64,000 nt of DNA, taken from assembly GCF_000428105.1 (NCBI RefSeq), contig NZ_ATZH01000017.1, forward strand, positions 1-64,000, in the 5' to 3' direction. Positions 3,722-12,504 of the stretch are shown here, one piece after another (the stretch's first letter is position 1; every line of letters begins with the position of its first letter). A model generated the notes under the pieces. That model saw only the letters and a list, made by a program, of their open reading frames with translations, was not told the DNA's origin and did no database searches. The position numbers and the translations under genes are program-made. The DNA is from Bacteroides pyogenes DSM 20611 = JCM 6294 (GTDB lineage Bacteria; Bacteroidota; Bacteroidia; Bacteroidales; Bacteroidaceae).

Positions 3722-6097
3722 ATGAAAGAAGAAATTTCGAGGGGAAATTTGAGAGAGAAGGAGGAAGAAAATATTAATTTGCGGGAGACGCTGTTTAAGT
3801 ACATCATTCACTGGCCTTGGCTGGCGGGAGCGGTGGCGGTCTGTCTGATCGCCGCTTACGCGTATCTGTACGTAACTCCGCCGGTGTATAATGTGTCGGC
3901 GACGGTGCTGATAAAGGACGATAAGAAGGGCGGAGGAAATAACGCGATGGCAGGGCTCGAAGGGCTGGGGCTGACGGGAATCATGAGCTCGTCGCAGAGC
4001 TTGGACAACGAGATGGAGGTGTTGCGTTCCAAAAGCCTGGTGAAAGAGGTGGTGGAACAGCTGAACCTTTACGTGGCTTATCGCGATGAGGATCCGTTTC
4101 CGGAGCAGGAGCTGTATCTGACGTCGCCGGTATTGATGAGCCTGACGCCGCAGGAGGCTTCCGAATTGAAGCAACCGATGGTGGTGGGGATGGTGTTGCA
4201 TCCCGAAGGCGCCTTGGAGGTGAACGTGGAAGTGGGGGAGAAGAAGTATGAAAAGCGGTTCGAGAAGTTGCCTGCCGTATTCCCTACGGACGAAGGCACG
4301 CTGGCTTTTTTTGCTTCGGGCGACTCGCTGAAGAAAGAGAAGCGCTACATCACGGCGACTGTCAAGCGTCCGATGCAGGTGGCGAAAGCATATTCCACGG
4401 CTTTGAACATTGCTCCGACCTCTAAAACGACTTCGGTGGCGGTGATTTCGCTGAAAGATACGGATAAGCAACGCGGAAAGGACTTCATCAACAAGTTGGT
4501 GGAGATGTACAACCGCAACACGAACAACGATAAGAACGAGATCGCGCAGAAGACGGCGCAGTTTATCGATGAGCGCATCGGCATTATCTCGAAGGAGCTG
4601 GGGAGTACGGAGGCGAATCTGGAGGCGTTCAAGCGGAGCGCGGGGATTACCGACCTGAGCAGCGACGCGCAGATAGCATTGACGGGAAGCGCGGAATATG
4701 AGAAGAAGCGGGCGGAGAACCGTACGCAGATCAATCTGGTGCAGGACCTCCGGAAATATATGTTGCGCAACGAGTACGAGGTGTTGCCGAGCAATGTGGG
4801 GTTGCAGGACGCCGCGCTGACGGCTTCGATCGACCGCTACAACGAGATGCTGATCGAGAAAAAACGATTGTTGCGCACGTCGACGGAAGATAACCCCGCC
4901 ATCGTGAACCTGAACACGAGCATTCAGGCGATGAAGGCGAATGTGCAGGCTACGCTGGACGGCACGTTGCAGGGACTGATGATTACGAGGGCCGATCTGG
5001 ACAGGGAAGCGGGACGTTTCTCGCAACGCATCAGCAATGCGCCGGGACAGGAGCGGGAGCTGGTAAGCATCTCGCGCCAGCAGGAGATCAAAGCGGGATT
5101 GTACCTGATGTTGTTGCAGAAGCGGGAGGAGAACGCCATCACGCTGGCGGCTACGGCCAACAACGCGAAGGTGATCGACGAGGCGATTGCGGACGACCTG
5201 CCGGTGGCTCCGAAAAAAAGCATGATTTATCTGTTGGCTTTGATGCTGGGGCTGGCGATTCCCGTGGGAGTCATTTACCTGCTCGACCTCACGAAGTACA
5301 AGATCGAGGGACATACGGATGTGGAGAAGTTGACCTCGGTGCCTATCGTAGGGGATATCCCGTTGACGGGCGAGGGTGCCAAGCAAGGCTCCATTGCGGT
5401 GTTCGAGAACCAAAACAACATGATGAGCGAGACATTCCGCCACATCCGCACGAACTTGCAGTTTATGCTGCAAGACAAGCAGGTGATCCTGTTCACTTCG
5501 ACGGTGAGCGGCGAGGGAAAATCGTTTGTTTCCTCCAACCTGGCGCTCAGCCTTTCTTATTTGGGCAAGAAGGTGGTGATCGTGGGGTTGGATATCCGCA
5601 AGCCGGGATTGAACAAAGTGTTCCGCCTCTCCACCAAGGAAAAGGGAATCACGCAGTATCTGGCGAACCCGTCGATGGATATCATGGAACTGGTGCAGCC
5701 TTCGGACGTGAGTGGCAACCTGTACATCCTGCCCGGAGGAATGGTGCCGCCCAACCCGACGGAGCTGTTGGCGCGCGAAGGCTTGGACAAGGCGATAGCT
5801 ACCCTGAAAGCGAAGTTCGATTACGTGATTCTGGATACCGCGCCCATCGGCATGGTGACGGATACGTTGCTCATAGCCCGTGTGGCGGATGTGTCGGTGT
5901 ATGTATGCCGTGCCGACTATACGCGCAAGGCTGAGTTCCTGCTGATCAACGATCTGGCGAAAGAACAGAAGCTGCCTAACTTGTGCACGGTAATCAACGG
6001 CATCGACCTGAGGAAGAAGAAATACGGCTATTATTACGGATACGGCAAGTACGGATATGCCCGTCATGCCGGGTACGGACAGGAGCCGGAAAGATAA
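3722..6097 (+). CDS. Wzz chain-length determinant fused to BY-type tyrosine kinase
   Basis: A 791-residue inner-membrane co-polymerase that controls polysaccharide chain length and export. Layout: short cytoplasmic N-terminus, first membrane helix at about residues 27-45, a long periplasmic coiled-coil region, second helix at about 500-520 (IYLLALMLGLAIPVGVIYLL), and a cytoplasmic kinase with Walker A STVSGEGKS (Lys600), GLDIRKPGLN and YVILDTAPIGMVTDT. The last 25 residues are rich in Tyr and Gly (KKYGYYYGYGKYGYARHAGYG), the usual autophosphorylation cluster. The last bases of this gene reappear near 10641, 4.5 kb away, as part of a repeat. Confidence 0.95.
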   Translation: MKEEISRGNLREKEEENINLRETLFKYIIHWPWLAGAVAVCLIAAYAYLYVTPPVYNVSATVLIKDDKKGGGNNAMAGLEGLGLTGIMSSSQSLDNEMEVLRSKSLVKEVVEQLNLYVAYRDEDPFPEQELYLTSPVLMSLTPQEASELKQPMVVGMVLHPEGALEVNVEVGEKKYEKRFEKLPAVFPTDEGTLAFFASGDSLKKEKRYITATVKRPMQVAKAYSTALNIAPTSKTTSVAVISLKDTDKQRGKDFINKLVEMYNRNTNNDKNEIAQKTAQFIDERIGIISKELGSTEANLEAFKRSAGITDLSSDAQIALTGSAEYEKKRAENRTQINLVQDLRKYMLRNEYEVLPSNVGLQDAALTASIDRYNEMLIEKKRLLRTSTEDNPAIVNLNTSIQAMKANVQATLDGTLQGLMITRADLDREAGRFSQRISNAPGQERELVSISRQQEIKAGLYLMLLQKREENAITLAATANNAKVIDEAIADDLPVAPKKSMIYLLALMLGLAIPVGVIYLLDLTKYKIEGHTDVEKLTSVPIVGDIPLTGEGAKQGSIAVFENQNNMMSETFRHIRTNLQFMLQDKQVILFTSTVSGEGKSFVSSNLALSLSYLGKKVVIVGLDIRKPGLNKVFRLSTKEKGITQYLANPSMDIMELVQPSDVSGNLYILPGGMVPPNPTELLAREGLDKAIATLKAKFDYVILDTAPIGMVTDTLLIARVADVSVYVCRADYTRKAEFLLINDLAKEQKLPNLCTVINGIDLRKKKYGYYYGYGKYGYARHAGYGQEPER

Positions 6098-6202
6098 GAA
6101 AAACGACCTGACGAATAGCGAAAATAATTGATAAATAAGCGGCTGATCTCTTGGGATTCAGCCGCTTATTTATTATCTTTATCGAATACTTACGAAGAAA
6201 AA
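6066..6202. repeat. Wzz-tail/terminator repeat, copy A
   Basis: The first and longest copy of a sequence found four times between 6.06 and 10.76 kb. It spans the final codons of the Wzz-kinase gene, a strong hairpin and an A-rich right arm. Bases 6066-6182 match copy D (10641-10757) over 117 nt with 4 differences. Bases 6095-6193 match copy B (8781-8879) over 99 nt with 4 differences. Bases 6179-6202 match the fragment copy C (10427-10450) with 1 difference. It bounds the restriction-modification cassette on the left. Confidence 0.92.
6131..6173 (+). terminator. Terminator after wzz-kinase
   Basis: Perfect 16-bp inverted repeat (6131-6146 with 6158-6173), core AAGCGGCTGA/TCAGCCGCTT, loop of 11 nt, followed by an AT-rich run. 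The stem has A-rich and T-rich outer halves and can act in both directions. It is the core of the repeated element; the stem is perfect in copy D (10706-10748) and carries a mismatch and a wobble in copy B (8817-8859). Confidence 0.85.
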
Positions 6203-6235
6203 ATACATTCATAAGAAGAATACAAAGTTTTTTTA

Positions 6236-6243
6236 TAATTTTG
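6236..6243 (+). promoter_or_regulatory. -7 element of the methyltransferase gene
   Basis: TAATTTTG matches TAnnTTTG and its last base is only 5 nt from the methyltransferase ATG at 6249. In Bacteroidota, transcription starts a few bases after this element, so the mRNA is predicted to be leaderless or nearly so. No convincing -33 TTTG at 19 nt is visible. Confidence 0.55.
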
Positions 6244-6248
6244 CAATT

Positions 6249-7805
6249 ATGAATATAAGCTGGTCTGAAATAAAGCCTTATCAGGATGAATTACCTACCC
6301 ACTATGCCGATAGAATAGGCAAACTATATGCTGATACGGTTAGCGCTACTTTCAAAAAAAGTAATGGTCAGTTTTTTACACCTATATCTATCGCTCACTT
6401 TATGAGCAAACAAATCGATTGTGACAAAGATTCCATTACCATATTAGATCCGGGATGCGGAACTGCTTTGTTGTCCTGTGCGGCAATTGAGAGACTGGTT
6501 TTGCAATCAAAGGTAAAACGAATAGAGCTAGTTGCATACGAAACCGATGAAAATCTTATGCCGGCATTACAAAGGGTGCTGGAATATCTAACAACATGGG
6601 GAGAGCGTCATAATGTTCGCATTGATTGTCATTCATTTTGTAAGGACTTTATTTTGTCCAATTATTCAGTTTTATATGCTGATACGATTTACGAAAAAGT
6701 AGACAATTTACAGAAATTTGATTTAATCATATCGAATCCCCCTTATTTCAAACTTTCTAAGGAAGATAAAAGGGCAAAGGCGGCTCAATGCATTATAGAC
6801 GGACAACCCAATATTTATTCGATATTTATGGCTGTGTCCGCCTTACTGCTTACTGAACAAGGTCAGATGATATATATCACTCCAAGAAGTTTTACTTCGG
6901 GAAGATATTTCCGTTTGTTCCGTAATTTTTTGTTCGAGCATGTGCAGATCGACTTTATTCATCTCTTCAATACAAGGAAAGATACATTCTCAAAAGATAA
7001 TGTGCTTCAGGAAACACTTATAATGAAGTGTTCCCCTAAAAAAGAAACGGATTATAATATTATATTATCATATAGCGAAGGACTTTTTGATCTAGCTGCT
7101 TCTGTAATTAGAACTGTACGGCAGAAAGAGATTATTGACCTTACTTCAAAAGAACAGATATTGCATTTGCCCGTCAATCTCCGAGACGAGAAAATTATTA
7201 AACTATTCAAGTCATGGAATGGTAACTTGAATAAATACCATATTCAGATTTCTACCGGTCCGGTAGTGGCTTTTCGGTCAAAGGAACAATTATGTGATAC
7301 TGCCGAAGAGGAGACTACTTCATTATATTGGCTGCATAATGTGGTAAAAATGCTGGCAGATCATCCTGTTGTAAAAGAAGGAAAACCGCAATTTATCCGT
7401 ATAAATGCAAGCTCTGTATCAACTTTATTGCCGAATAAGAATTATGTCCTTTTGCGGCGTTTTAGTTCCAAAGACGATAGTAGCCGGTTAATTGCCGCAC
7501 CTTATTTTGGCAATATGACTTCTTGCGGCTACGTAGGAATAGAAAACAAACTGAATTATATTTATCGTCCTAAAGGACATTTGAATCGTATGGAGGTAAT
7601 GGGAATAGCCGCTTTATTGAATAGCGATTTGTTTGATAATTATTTCAGGACATTCAACGGGAATGTAAATGTCAGTGCTACGGAACTGAGAGAAATGCCC
7701 ATGCCTCCTCTTGAAGTTATTAAGAGTATTGGGAAAGACTTAATTGCCACGAATGATTATTCTATGGTGAACGTAAATAAAATTGTAAATAAATATTTCA
7801 TGTAG
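6249..7805 (+). CDS. Eco57I-like adenine-N6 DNA methyltransferase
   Basis: A 518-residue N6-adenine methyltransferase, the modification half of a type II-like system. Motif I (SAM binding) is DPGCGTA starting at Asp67; the catalytic motif IV is NPPY at residues 163-166 (DLIISNPPYFKLS). The C-terminal half is a target-recognition region with the family's LLNSDLFDNYFRTFNGNVNVSATELREMP segment. One base separates its stop from the nuclease gene's ATG. Codon use is AT-rich against the GC-rich Wzz gene, which supports acquisition. Because the nuclease partner is interrupted, this may now act as an orphan methyltransferase. Confidence 0.93.
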   Translation: MNISWSEIKPYQDELPTHYADRIGKLYADTVSATFKKSNGQFFTPISIAHFMSKQIDCDKDSITILDPGCGTALLSCAAIERLVLQSKVKRIELVAYETDENLMPALQRVLEYLTTWGERHNVRIDCHSFCKDFILSNYSVLYADTIYEKVDNLQKFDLIISNPPYFKLSKEDKRAKAAQCIIDGQPNIYSIFMAVSALLLTEQGQMIYITPRSFTSGRYFRLFRNFLFEHVQIDFIHLFNTRKDTFSKDNVLQETLIMKCSPKKETDYNIILSYSEGLFDLAASVIRTVRQKEIIDLTSKEQILHLPVNLRDEKIIKLFKSWNGNLNKYHIQISTGPVVAFRSKEQLCDTAEEETTSLYWLHNVVKMLADHPVVKEGKPQFIRINASSVSTLLPNKNYVLLRRFSSKDDSSRLIAAPYFGNMTSCGYVGIENKLNYIYRPKGHLNRMEVMGIAALLNSDLFDNYFRTFNGNVNVSATELREMPMPPLEVIKSIGKDLIATNDYSMVNVNKIVNKYFM

Positions 7806-7806
7806 T

Positions 7807-8748
7807 ATGAGTAAGATAAGTGAAGCACAAGAAATATTGTCTGTATTGGGGTTACCACCCGCACAGCAGAATGAAATTTCCGCTCTGACTTTACTTGCGT
7901 CATGCGGATTGAAGGAGAAGGATAAGTGGACAGATACTACTCGCAACAGCTTAAAAATCAGTAAGGATATTATGGCGTTTGTCAATAGGAACTATAAAAA
8001 GGAACAACCGTATGCTCCTAACACACGGGAAACTTTCAGACGCCAGGTGCTTCATCAGTTTTTGTAAGCACGTATTGTAGATTACAATCCTGATAATCCG
8101 GCTTTACCGGTAAATAGCCCGAATGCCCATTATAAATTGACCGAAGAAGCTTGTGAAGTGATAAAATCATATAATACCGGAGAATGGAAAACTAAAGCTC
8201 AGAGCTTTAATAATGCTGTCGGACGATTGATTGAGGAATATGAGAAAAATCGTATGATGGAAATGATACCGGTCACCATTGAAGATGTGGAGTTTAAATT
8301 ATCTCCGGGTAAGCATAATGAAATACAAGCAATGGTCATTAATGAGTTTGCCCCTCGTTTTGCGTCAGGTTCGAAGGTTCTTTATATCGGTGATACGGCC
8401 AATAAAGATCTTTATTGCAACAAGGAGCTTTTAAAAGAAATCGGCATTCCAATAACCGAACACAGCAAATTGCCTGATATTGTTATTTATGATAGCTATA
8501 AAGAGTGGCTGTTTTTAATTGAGGTGGTTACCTCACACGGTCCGGTATCTCCGAAACGTGTAATTGAGTTGGAAGATTTCACAAAAGAATGTAAAGCGGG
8601 GAAAGTGTATGTTACAGCTTTCCCTGATAAGACTGAATTTAAGAAACATGTGGCAGACATTGCATGGGAAACAGAAGTTTGGATCGCAGAAAATCCGGAT
8701 CATATGATTCACTTCAATGGAGATCGGTTTATCGGACCAAGAAATTAG
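7807..8748 (+). pseudogene. BsuBI/PstI-family restriction endonuclease, interrupted by an in-frame stop
   Basis: The reading frame from ATG 7807 to the stop ending at 8748 is 313 codons plus stop, the length of BsuBI/PstI-type nucleases, but codon 87 (8065-8067) is TAA. The frame continues without shift as ARIVDYNPDNPALPVNSPNA. Gln (CAA) would be restored by a single T-to-C change, and the surrounding text fits this family. The nuclease core is intact after the stop: PDIVIYDS (from residue 223) and LIEVVTSHGPVSPKR (Glu239). The protein would be cut to 86 residues without catalytic domain unless the stop is read through or is a sequencing error. Confidence 0.88.
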
Positions 8749-8780
8749 TTTATTGATTGGATGAGCATAGCATTTCCGGA

Positions 8781-8879
8781 TAAGAAAAACGACCTGACGA
8801 ATAGCGAAAATAATTGATAAATAAGCGGATGATCTCTTGGGATTCAGTCGCTTATTTATTATCTTTATCGGATGCTTAC
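8781..8879. repeat. Wzz-tail/terminator repeat, copy B
   Basis: This 99-nt copy lies between the restriction-modification and AbiE cassettes. It lacks the Wzz coding tail but keeps the hairpin region and the first part of the right arm (ends CTTAC). It differs from copy A at four positions, two of them in the stem (GCGGATGA against TCAGTCGC), giving a mismatch and a G-T wobble. It sits between two convergent genes and can still fold as a terminator for both. Confidence 0.92.
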
Positions 8880-8895
8880 TGCTTACCATACAAGA

Positions 8896-9723
8896 TTATC
8901 CCATTTTCATCATCCCAGCCAACTGCACGAAATAATCATTTGACCAAATATCAAGTTCTTTTGGATTGCGGACGAAAGGCAATACATCTTCTTTCACTTG
9001 CTTTATATCAGCTGTAGAGAGGCACTCAATGAGTTTCTCCTTAAATAACTCTGGAGTAATATTCTCATTGTTGAACTGCTTGCATCGTTCTGCCAAATGA
9101 GTAAAATCCAGCGGAACATTATGGCGTACATACCATTCAAAATCGTACCAATCACGGCCTTTAACCCTATTTTTCCATGCACGGTAGACCAATGCGTGCA
9201 TCTTGCCGGCAAACAGATCGGGAAGTATAAAACAATGAGTCATAAATGAGTGTGGCAGAAGCAATAGTTTCTGTTCTGTCTTAAAGTTCAATGGTGGACA
9301 AGTATCTACTTCAATCTTTATCTTTATTGACTTCTCGGTTTGGAAAGTTACATCATACACATCAGTATTATCTTTAAGAAATGCCGATTCGACCTTTCTG
9401 AAATTCTTTTTATCTTTTTTCTTTATTTCAACCTCACGACCTACCATTGCAAAAGCATCAATGATAGCAGGAAAATATTTTGTAAAATCGAAATTGTCAT
9501 CATGCGCAAGTAACGAAAAATCCATATCCTCACTGAAACGTTGCAGGCCATGAAAGATTCTTAAACAAGTACCTCCATAGAACGCTGCTGACTCAAAAAA
9601 GCCCCCAGAATAAAGTCCAGCAAGTATCACCTGTTGGTTAACTTCAAATATGGCGTTTCTTTTATGTTGCTCCGTCGTCAAGTCATAGCGGGATAGCATA
9701 TTGTCAAATATCTCATTCTTCAT
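8896..9723 (-). CDS. abiEii: AbiEii/AbiGii-type nucleotidyltransferase toxin
   Basis: Toxin of a type IV (AbiE) toxin-antitoxin and abortive-infection system, 275 residues. The nucleotidyltransferase core shows GGTCLR followed by EDMDFSLL (DxD metal site). The conserved later Lys/Asp segment lies in DLFAGKMHALVYRAWKNRVKGRDWYDFEWY. AbiEii proteins modify RNA acceptors with nucleotides and stop growth when free of the antitoxin. The gene overlaps its antitoxin by 4 bp (ATGA), the usual arrangement. It is convergent to the restriction nuclease and separated from it by repeat copy B. Confidence 0.92.
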   Translation of the reverse strand: MKNEIFDNMLSRYDLTTEQHKRNAIFEVNQQVILAGLYSGGFFESAAFYGGTCLRIFHGLQRFSEDMDFSLLAHDDNFDFTKYFPAIIDAFAMVGREVEIKKKDKKNFRKVESAFLKDNTDVYDVTFQTEKSIKIKIEVDTCPPLNFKTEQKLLLLPHSFMTHCFILPDLFAGKMHALVYRAWKNRVKGRDWYDFEWYVRHNVPLDFTHLAERCKQFNNENITPELFKEKLIECLSTADIKQVKEDVLPFVRNPKELDIWSNDYFVQLAGMMKMG

Positions 9724-10346
9724 CGTCTCAGTAATTTTAATAGTATAGAGATTGAATCAGCCTTTTTGCCAACCTTTATATAGTCTTCGAATATAGTTTC
9801 ATCCATCTTATAGAACTCATCCATATCCATACGGATATCTTGTTCAAGATATATTTCCACATCTTTCATATAGCGAAGATAGACCTTTGAGGAATTGGCA
9901 ATCAAATCACACAAAGCCTTTTCCGGTGATGCAATAAGAAATGCATAATCACCCTTATGCATACTCCTTACTCCTATCGAAAATGCCTCTCTTGAAATAT
10001 ATTTGTAGTCATAAATGCCGACTGGAGTTTGAAAGCTACGAGAGTGCTTTACTGTCATTGATTGATTAACATATACAGCCTCGGGAATAAGTCCATAATA
10101 TCGTAGCGCAGTAGACATTGAAACATATGAAGGGGTATAGAGGTGATTGGCAATCAATTCACTCGATAGAATCTTTCCTGAATGTTCGGGGTTGACTACA
10201 TAAAGTCCTCGCTTCAGCCTGATAATATAGCCTTGCTTCTCGAGCCAGGTTACTTTCTTGTTAGCAGACTTAAGTTCTGGATATAACGATTCAATGATTG
10301 AAGTCGTTACTGGAATAATTCCTATTTCGCTTAATTGTCTATTCAT
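9720..10346 (-). CDS. abiEi: AbiEi-type antitoxin and repressor
   Basis: Antitoxin of the AbiE pair, 208 residues. The N-terminal ~70 residues form a winged helix (VTWLEKQGYIIRLKRGLYVV) that in AbiEi proteins binds the promoter and represses the operon. The C-terminal domain (YAFLIASPEKALCDLI and following) is the antitoxin part. It is first in the operon and overlaps the toxin by 4 bp. A TATTTTTG -7 element stands 4 nt before its ATG, so repression and leaderless initiation would occur at the same place. Confidence 0.92.
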   Translation of the reverse strand: MNRQLSEIGIIPVTTSIIESLYPELKSANKKVTWLEKQGYIIRLKRGLYVVNPEHSGKILSSELIANHLYTPSYVSMSTALRYYGLIPEAVYVNQSMTVKHSRSFQTPVGIYDYKYISREAFSIGVRSMHKGDYAFLIASPEKALCDLIANSSKVYLRYMKDVEIYLEQDIRMDMDEFYKMDETIFEDYIKVGKKADSISILLKLLRR

Positions 10347-10350
10347 ACTG

Positions 10351-10358
10351 CAAAAATA
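10351..10358 (-). promoter_or_regulatory. -7 element of the abiE operon
   Basis: On the minus strand TATTTTTG ends 4 nt before the abiEi ATG (10346), again predicting a leaderless mRNA. The AT-rich stretch 10359-10426 upstream would hold the AbiEi operator; I see short A/T-rich near-repeats but no clean palindrome. Confidence 0.5.
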
Positions 10359-10426
10359 GAAATAATTTGAACAATAAAAGAAATATAACTTCTTTTTCTA
10401 TTCAAAATATTACTATTAAAACAGTT

Positions 10427-10450
10427 TTATCGGATACTTACGAAGAAAAA
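10427..10450. repeat. Wzz-tail/terminator repeat, fragment copy C
   Basis: Only the right arm of the repeat, from TTATCGGATACTTACG to AAGAAAAA, is present, with one difference from copy A (6179-6202). The hairpin is missing. It separates the abiE promoter region from the broken DUF4143 gene. Confidence 0.8.
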
Positions 10451-10640
10451 TGTTACTTCCTGCTGGTACGTAAGATTTCCAACGGCGGTTAAGATCATTT
10501 GGGATGATGGTGTCTTCAGCTTGTCTGTATCAATGGTAGAGGCAAACTTGGTGAGTGTTGCTGCATCGGCTTCAATGAATGCCCAAAACTGCCGTAGCGA
10601 TGGATGGATCGACGTAGTAACGAGTGTCACGTAGAAGTGT
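10451..10640 (-). pseudogene. DUF4143 ATP-binding protein, internal-deletion remnant
   Basis: Two pieces of one protein family are readable on the minus strand in different frames. Bases 10640-10572 give LRDTRYYVDPSIATAVLGIH, matching the RYFVDPS.A.A.LG part of DUF4143 ATPases (ATP-binding proteins of unclear role). Bases from about 10588 down give IEADAATLTKFASTIDTDK then MILTAVGNLTYQQE, matching the family's C-terminal end. About 60-70 residues between them are missing and the frame shifts. The first piece starts exactly where repeat copy D begins and the last one runs into copy C, so both ends are cut by the repeats. Confidence 0.65.
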
Positions 10641-10757
10641 ATGCCGAATACGGACAGGAACCGGAAAGATAAGAAAAACGACCTGACGAATAGCGAAAAT
10701 AATTGATAAATAAGCGGCTGATTTCTTGGGATTCAGCCGCTTATTTATTATCTTTAT
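10641..10757. repeat. Wzz-tail/terminator repeat, copy D
   Basis: This 117-nt copy matches copy A at 6066-6182 with four differences, all transitions. It includes a duplicated 3' end of the Wzz-kinase gene (ATGCCG..TACGGACAGGA) plus the perfect 16-bp-stem hairpin at 10706-10748. After it the sequence departs from copies A, B and C and leads into the DUF4248 gene. It may be the original right border of the locus, with everything from 6.2 to 10.6 kb inserted later. Confidence 0.92.
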
Positions 10758-10783: not shown

Positions 10784-11008
10784 ATGGAATTGAATGATTT
10801 TGTAGTAAAATGTTATGATAAAAACGAACTGGCGAGAATGTATTTCCCCGACCTCGAAGCGGGGGTGGCGGTGAACAAGCTGAGGCGGTGGATGCGCCGG
10901 TGCGAACCGTTGATGCAGGAGATGCGCCAAACGAATTACCATCCGAAAACAAAGGCTTTCACGGCCAGAGAGGTGAGGCTGATCACCCGCTACCTGGGGG
11001 AGCCTTGA
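10784..11008 (+). CDS. DUF4248-family small protein
   Basis: A 74-residue protein resembling the DUF4248 family, common beside capsule loci and mobile elements in Bacteroides. It begins MELNDFVVKCYDKNELARMY and has the helix-rich pattern NKLRRWMRRCEPLM and FTAREVRLITRYLG, compatible with a small DNA-binding fold. Function unknown. Its last 19 bases overlap the 3' end of the convergent amidase gene. Confidence 0.8.
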   Translation: MELNDFVVKCYDKNELARMYFPDLEAGVAVNKLRRWMRRCEPLMQEMRQTNYHPKTKAFTAREVRLITRYLGEP

Positions 11009-12267: not shown

Positions 12268-12355
12268 GTATAGCGGGATGCGGGCGTGACGCTCAATGAC
12301 GTTCATTGACGGGGTGGGAAAAAGAAAAACCGGAGACTGCGGATGGAAAAAAGTC

Positions 12356-12504
12356 GGCGGGCTTTGCCATCGAACACGGCGGGCTTTGAAAAAAAGGCGG
12401 CGGGCTTTGCCATCGAACACGGCGGGCTTTGAAAAAAACACGACGGGCTTTACCATCAAACACGGCGGGCTTTGTGATCCAACTCCGCAGGCTTTAAGAA
12501 AAAC
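12356..12504. repeat. Alternating 22/21-bp tandem repeat array
   Basis: Seven head-to-tail units all contain GGCGGGCTTT or a near variant. Units alternate: 12356-12377 (22), 12378-12398 (21), 12399-12420 (22), 12421-12441 (21), 12442-12463 (22), 12464-12484 (21), 12485-12504 (20, degenerate). Odd units continue CCATCGAACAC, and the first two even units continue GAAAAAAA. The real period is thus about 43 bp. It fills most of the 414-bp gap between the HU gene and the VirE/DUF3987 gene. There are no spacers of unrelated sequence, so it is not a CRISPR array. Confidence 0.9.

Follow-up and report, generated by a model that had tools for sequence, protein, structure and literature searches.

Behind the capsule operon of Bacteroides pyogenes DSM 20611 lies a stack of small defence modules separated by repeats, and the question is whether these repeats are a device for acquiring modules or a trace left by their acquisition. 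The window analysed, i.e., the whole stretch of DNA under study, is the first 64,000 nt of contig NZ_ATZH01000017.1 (GCF_000428105.1). In it the stack occupies the interval between the operon's final gene, wzz, encoding a Wzz-type chain-length determinant fused to a tyrosine kinase (3722..6097, + strand; Pfam Wzz, GNVR, and AAA_31 over cut-off), and a DUF4248 gene, the first to its right (10784..11008, +; PF14053, 4e-29).

The four copies that had been reported from the letters alone were all recovered. Copy A (6066..6182, +; 6066-6202 including its arm) consists of 27 nt from the 3' end of wzz followed by a 90-nt terminator unit, T (6093-6182), and copy D (10641..10757, +), the native right-hand copy before DUF4248, likewise carries the Wzz tail and T. 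A and D are 97% identical over 117 nt with the four transitions already noted (E 1.9e-50, within-genome comparison). D is flanked by TATCTTTATAGGG, which is common to the window and B. pyogenes DSM 19673. Copy B (8779..8879, +) has T without the Wzz tail (8779-8868) and the arm (8864-8879). Its agreement with A was also borne out, at 96% identity (E 1.0e-41, same comparison), and extends over 101 nt, i.e., T and the next 11 nt. With these E-values neither match can be ascribed to chance. Copy C (10426..10450, +) is an arm only, as claimed, without terminator: it consists of the 16-nt end described below (10426-10441) and GAAGAAAA, and has 96% identity to the arm of A. The original prediction of one repeated sequence made of Wzz tail, terminator and arm thus holds for the terminator (A, B, and D) and the tail (A and D), while the arm turned out to be the end of an IS66-family transposon.

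By fold computation the hairpin of T reaches -27.7 kcal/mol in A (z -6.9) and -27.5 kcal/mol in D (z -6.8), and is weaker in B (-18.5 kcal/mol, z -3.3), where two stem positions are changed and uncompensated. T was missed by a consensus terminator scan, probably because the scan wants a T run right after the stem; the hairpin is nonetheless supported by the fold. The suggestion that terminator copies insulate the cassettes finds no favour here, as the two uncompensated changes in B speak against selection for insulation.

The borders of the modules coincide with the repeats as foreseen, with a restriction-modification (R-M) pair between A and B, an AbiE pair between B and C, and a DUF4143 gene relic between C and D. 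HMM and homology searches agree with these original assignments, with two amendments: the restriction gene is interrupted, and the DUF4143 gene is frame-changed as well as truncated. The R-M pair has an N6-adenine DNA methyltransferase gene (Eco57I/N6_Mtase; 6249..7805, +; PF07669 1e-16, PF02384 1e-9; PADLOC MTase_II 4e-107) and a BsuBI/PstI-type restriction endonuclease gene (7807..8748, +) split by an in-frame TAA at 8065-8067, with PF17728 and PF06616 on separate halves. The domains of a type II R-M system of the BsuBI/PstI kind are present and the adjacent methylase is intact, but the endonuclease is not. Since the endonuclease gene has this in-frame stop and its ortholog in B. pyogenes DSM 19673 is uninterrupted, the copy in the window is probably methylase-only. 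The AbiEii nucleotidyltransferase toxin gene (8896..9723, - strand; PF08843 6e-33; PADLOC AbiEii 1e-114) and the adjoining AbiEi antitoxin gene (9720..10346, -; PADLOC AbiEi 1e-74; Pfam AbiEi_4 below cut-off) overlap, and together would make up an AbiE (type IV) toxin-antitoxin system. The relic (10451..10640, -) comprises two stretches in different frames that match a 427-aa DUF4143-type AAA ATPase (tblastn 2e-9 and 2e-7), and a genus search found the corresponding region in proteins of 426-500 aa. Its N-terminal part is gone, an internal deletion changes the frame and its 3' end is cut by the IS66 end; as a single frame it had no match in Pfam, NCBIfam or PADLOC, and it was recognised by frame-by-frame comparison. 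A TAnnTTTG box lies just upstream of the start of the methylase gene and of the AbiE pair, for the former as TAATTTTG at 6236. Such a box fits the -7 element of Bacteroides promoters, and the methylase and the AbiE pair may be self-promoted. The interval contains no recognisable recombinase or transposase gene.

The identity of the arm is central to reading the stack. The sequence common to A, B, and C ends precisely at TTTATCGRATRCTTAC, a 16-mer with 38 exact matches in 159 genomes of the genus Bacteroides (this locus and its sister account for four) vs. one for the reversed control. Thirty of these loci were fetched and three belonging to this locus or its sister set aside; IS66-type proteins were encoded within 1.5 kb at 21 of the remaining 27. 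Inverted pairs of the 16-mer were fetched in six cases, five of which enclose elements of 2576-2939 bp flanked by perfect 8-bp duplications, and the 2576-bp element, from genome G147, encodes an IS66 transposase (E 6e-98). IS66 elements have been described as 2.7-2.8 kb long with 8-bp duplications (PMC3281130). The sixth pair is a 42-bp palindrome (L267; G092:C98:14349-14390), two IS66 ends face to face with no interior, which resembles a minimal remnant. Judged by these matches, the arm is the terminus of IS66-family transposons in Bacteroides. The arm also reads FFFVSIR-stop, which raised the possibility that the DUF4143 gene ends in it; this was rejected, as full-length homologs end VVPIGCLKD-like and the arm matches IS66 ends. 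Nor is the terminator a portion of the IS66 end, the IS66 interiors beside the end being unrelated to it.

At copy A the IS66-type end (6178..6193, +; exact match to IS66-family ends) is followed directly by GAAGAAAA (6194-6201), and because the end at C is followed by the same sequence, the simplest reading is that both derive from a single end by copying. The three ends in the window are all right ends in the same orientation, no opposite (left) end was found within 5.5-11.5 kb, and neither the window genome nor DSM 19673 has an IS66 transposase. The two inverted ends, transposase and 8-bp duplication of an IS66-family transposon are not found here; the IS66 ends of the stack are orphans, a relic rather than an element.

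Relatives indicate to which partner the repeats belong. AbiE homologs with 89% identity occur in three genomes (G007, G193, and G137) and an R-M homolog with 83% identity in a fourth (G120), all in unrelated surroundings. Their homology ends near the repeats of the window (8891-10422 for AbiE, 6199-8742 for R-M), and no direct repeats were found around any of them. Because homologous modules elsewhere lack the repeats, these belong to the target site, and the possibility that the modules themselves carried them is rejected; moreover, part of wzz, its 3' end, is included in both A and D. In B. faecis, B. congonensis and a further genome (G059), wzz is followed by DUF4248 after about 200 nt with neither insertion nor T. 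The fully empty site is thus seen in other species only, and there it shares with the window only the core TATCTTTAT(A/T)G. The same unit at other capsule loci of the genome had been envisaged as homology for shuffling. T is found at this locus only, which leaves no homology between capsule loci, and among the 159 genomes of the genus it occurs in one other, that of B. pyogenes DSM 19673. Confinement to this site is what the original prediction had itself named as counting against it. A weak match in G147 (77% over 56 nt), preceded by a gene which we take, from reading by eye, to be purH, is probably an unrelated terminator. The same genome has a DUF4248 gene whose 3' end lies about 220 nt from one terminus of the complete 2576-bp IS66 element (L264; G147:C1:3634917-3637932), and the amidase neighbouring that element was matched only in part.

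In B. pyogenes DSM 19673 the order is wzz, a counterpart of copy A (A'), an IS66 end, GAAGAAAA, the R-M pair, a single copy of T, and DUF4248. The stretch exactly between B and D (window 8880 to 10640) is absent, and the single right-hand copy is a hybrid: its left flank is that of B and its right flank that of D, it matches A perfectly over 90 nt, and it is without the 27-nt Wzz tail that D carries. Because both R-M joints match between the two genomes, the left one being the same and the right one corresponding (the 32 nt before B are 84% identical), one R-M insertion event for both is suggested. Identity between the genomes is 81-93% in the last kilobase of wzz, 94% in A, 97-100% in the R-M pair, and about 97% downstream of D. 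As identity jumps right after A, the alignment puts a recombination breakpoint, separating the capsule allele from the cassette, at or near this copy, and the jump (window 5000-6200) reads as a capsule allele exchange with its breakpoint near the repeat.

Taken with the directly observed copies, their nesting and the empty sites of relatives, these data make it reasonably probable that three nested insertions occurred between wzz and DUF4248 and that the repeats mostly arose by duplication of the target as each insert came in. First, a DUF4143 ATPase gene interrupted by an IS66-family transposon would have arrived on a segment whose entry duplicated 117 nt, i.e., the Wzz tail and the terminator, giving A and D; the body of the IS66 element would then have been lost, perhaps at a common CTTTAT, so that its outer 16 nt remain. 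Second, the R-M pair would have entered and duplicated 101-109 nt comprising the terminator and the IS66 end (A and B), the 109-nt version including the GAAGAAAA that now stands behind C. Third, AbiE would have inserted into the IS66 end with a 16-nt duplication (the arm of B and C). Repeats indeed stand at every module border with nested lengths of 117, about 101-109, and 16 nt. Once several terminator copies were present, ordinary homologous recombination could delete what lies between them, and the DSM 19673 allele would be a homologous deletion between B and D. Its A' with the IS66 end and GAAGAAAA, which in the window borders the DUF4143 relic, is as expected if the rest was once present.

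This scheme postulates both a loss of the IS66 body and the enzymes that would have acted. The order of the insertions and their polarity (gain or loss) are read from the nesting, because the unit is present in two genomes only; the order fits in that the innermost relic, DUF4143, is the most decayed of the modules. At 16 nt, the duplication around AbiE is short, and a deletion at a second IS66 end could have produced it. With respect to polarity, import of the segment from AbiE to D from another strain fits too, since D has the 27-nt Wzz tail that is missing from the hybrid.

Nested insertion with target duplication has a precedent. R-M insertion with long target duplication was described in Helicobacter (Nobusato, Uchiyama, Ohashi and Kobayashi, Gene 2000, as cited in PMC1643837, PMC4978471, and PMC3031569), and passages of PMC3031569 summarise the "long and variable target duplications" of R-M genes and propose similar behaviour for toxin-antitoxin systems. 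The present locus is similar in having a long direct target duplication, recognised by comparison of close genomes, around an insert without transposase, and here too direct copies of the target, tens to hundreds of nt long (117 nt for A/D, about 101 nt for A/B), flank the inserts. The relative lacking the B-D insert keeps one copy, a hybrid. The differences are that there are three nested events, one of them AbiE with just 16 nt duplicated, that an orphan IS66 end lies in the target, and that a fully empty allele is available from other species only, where T is lacking. On this reading the locus is the known R-M long-target-duplication pattern in nested form. Its unusual points are that three events are nested, that AbiE is among the inserts, and that an orphan IS66 end is present.

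The original prediction, in which homologous recombination favours the conserved terminator behind wzz and there adds defence cassettes or exchanges them between strains, is unlikely, but it accounts for part of the data. Cassette borders coincide with copies of T, the segment from B to D behaves as one unit, present whole or missing whole, with the hybrid copy standing in its exact place in the sister genome, and the step in identity just past A, the best remaining support for use of the repeat in recombination, lies at or near it. On the other hand the unit appears to be duplicated target and not a docking sequence borne by cassettes, it is confined to this site and one other genome, the two genomes that have it hold no alternative cargo between the repeats, and the stem in B is decaying. 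The corollary that every addition leaves a new terminator copy applies to the R-M pair, which left B, but not to AbiE, which has no T on its right and lies between two 16-nt IS66 ends. The locus resembles a defence island or insertion hotspot in that R-M and AbiE adjoin at one permissive intergenic site that is vacant in relatives; it differs in having no carrier mobile element and in being known from two genomes. It is tempting to speculate, with still less confidence, that in the B. pyogenes group the capsule terminator is a standing recombination hub, where immune modules would come and go between T copies by homologous recombination without integrase or transposase, linked to capsule allele exchange with its breakpoint at the same repeat.

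It is quite improbable that IS66 activity, composite or one-ended, carried or inserted the cassettes and copied the terminator along. An IS66 end does mark the left border of all three modules, and the arms are identical to the outer 16 nt of IS66 ends, but the ends face the same way with no opposite partner, no transposase is encoded in either genome, and no 8-bp duplication pairs two ends; A and C, moreover, share 8 nt outside the end, as copies of one end would and independent events would not. A composite element was rejected on the missing left end and transposase. That T is an att or attC-like site of an integrase (integron, satellite or island) is highly improbable, for although the modules are set apart by direct repeats with a hairpin, as integron cassettes and att-flanked islands are, none of the proteins encoded in the interval is an integrase, the repeat is a host gene end plus terminator whose length differs by cassette instead of a uniform core site, and searches of phage records, plasmid records and viral contigs yielded no copy of T.

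Read as nested target duplications, the stack would be a legible fossil record of small defence modules piling up at one chromosomal point with no visible mobile element, made up of three duplications nested in one another, a transposon end without its partner, and a hybrid repeat in a sister genome that resembles a deletion product. The R-M long-target-duplication pattern would thereby gain a toxin-antitoxin pair and a case in Bacteroides, and the locus cautions that neat repeat-delimited cassettes can be target duplications with no docking system behind them. Elsewhere in the window, an IstB-like IS21 helper ATPase gene adjoins the capsule genes (7-618), and tandem 43-nt repeats (GGCGGGCTTTGCCATCGAACAC...) lie at 12344-12494, between an HU-type gene and a DUF3987 primase-like gene.
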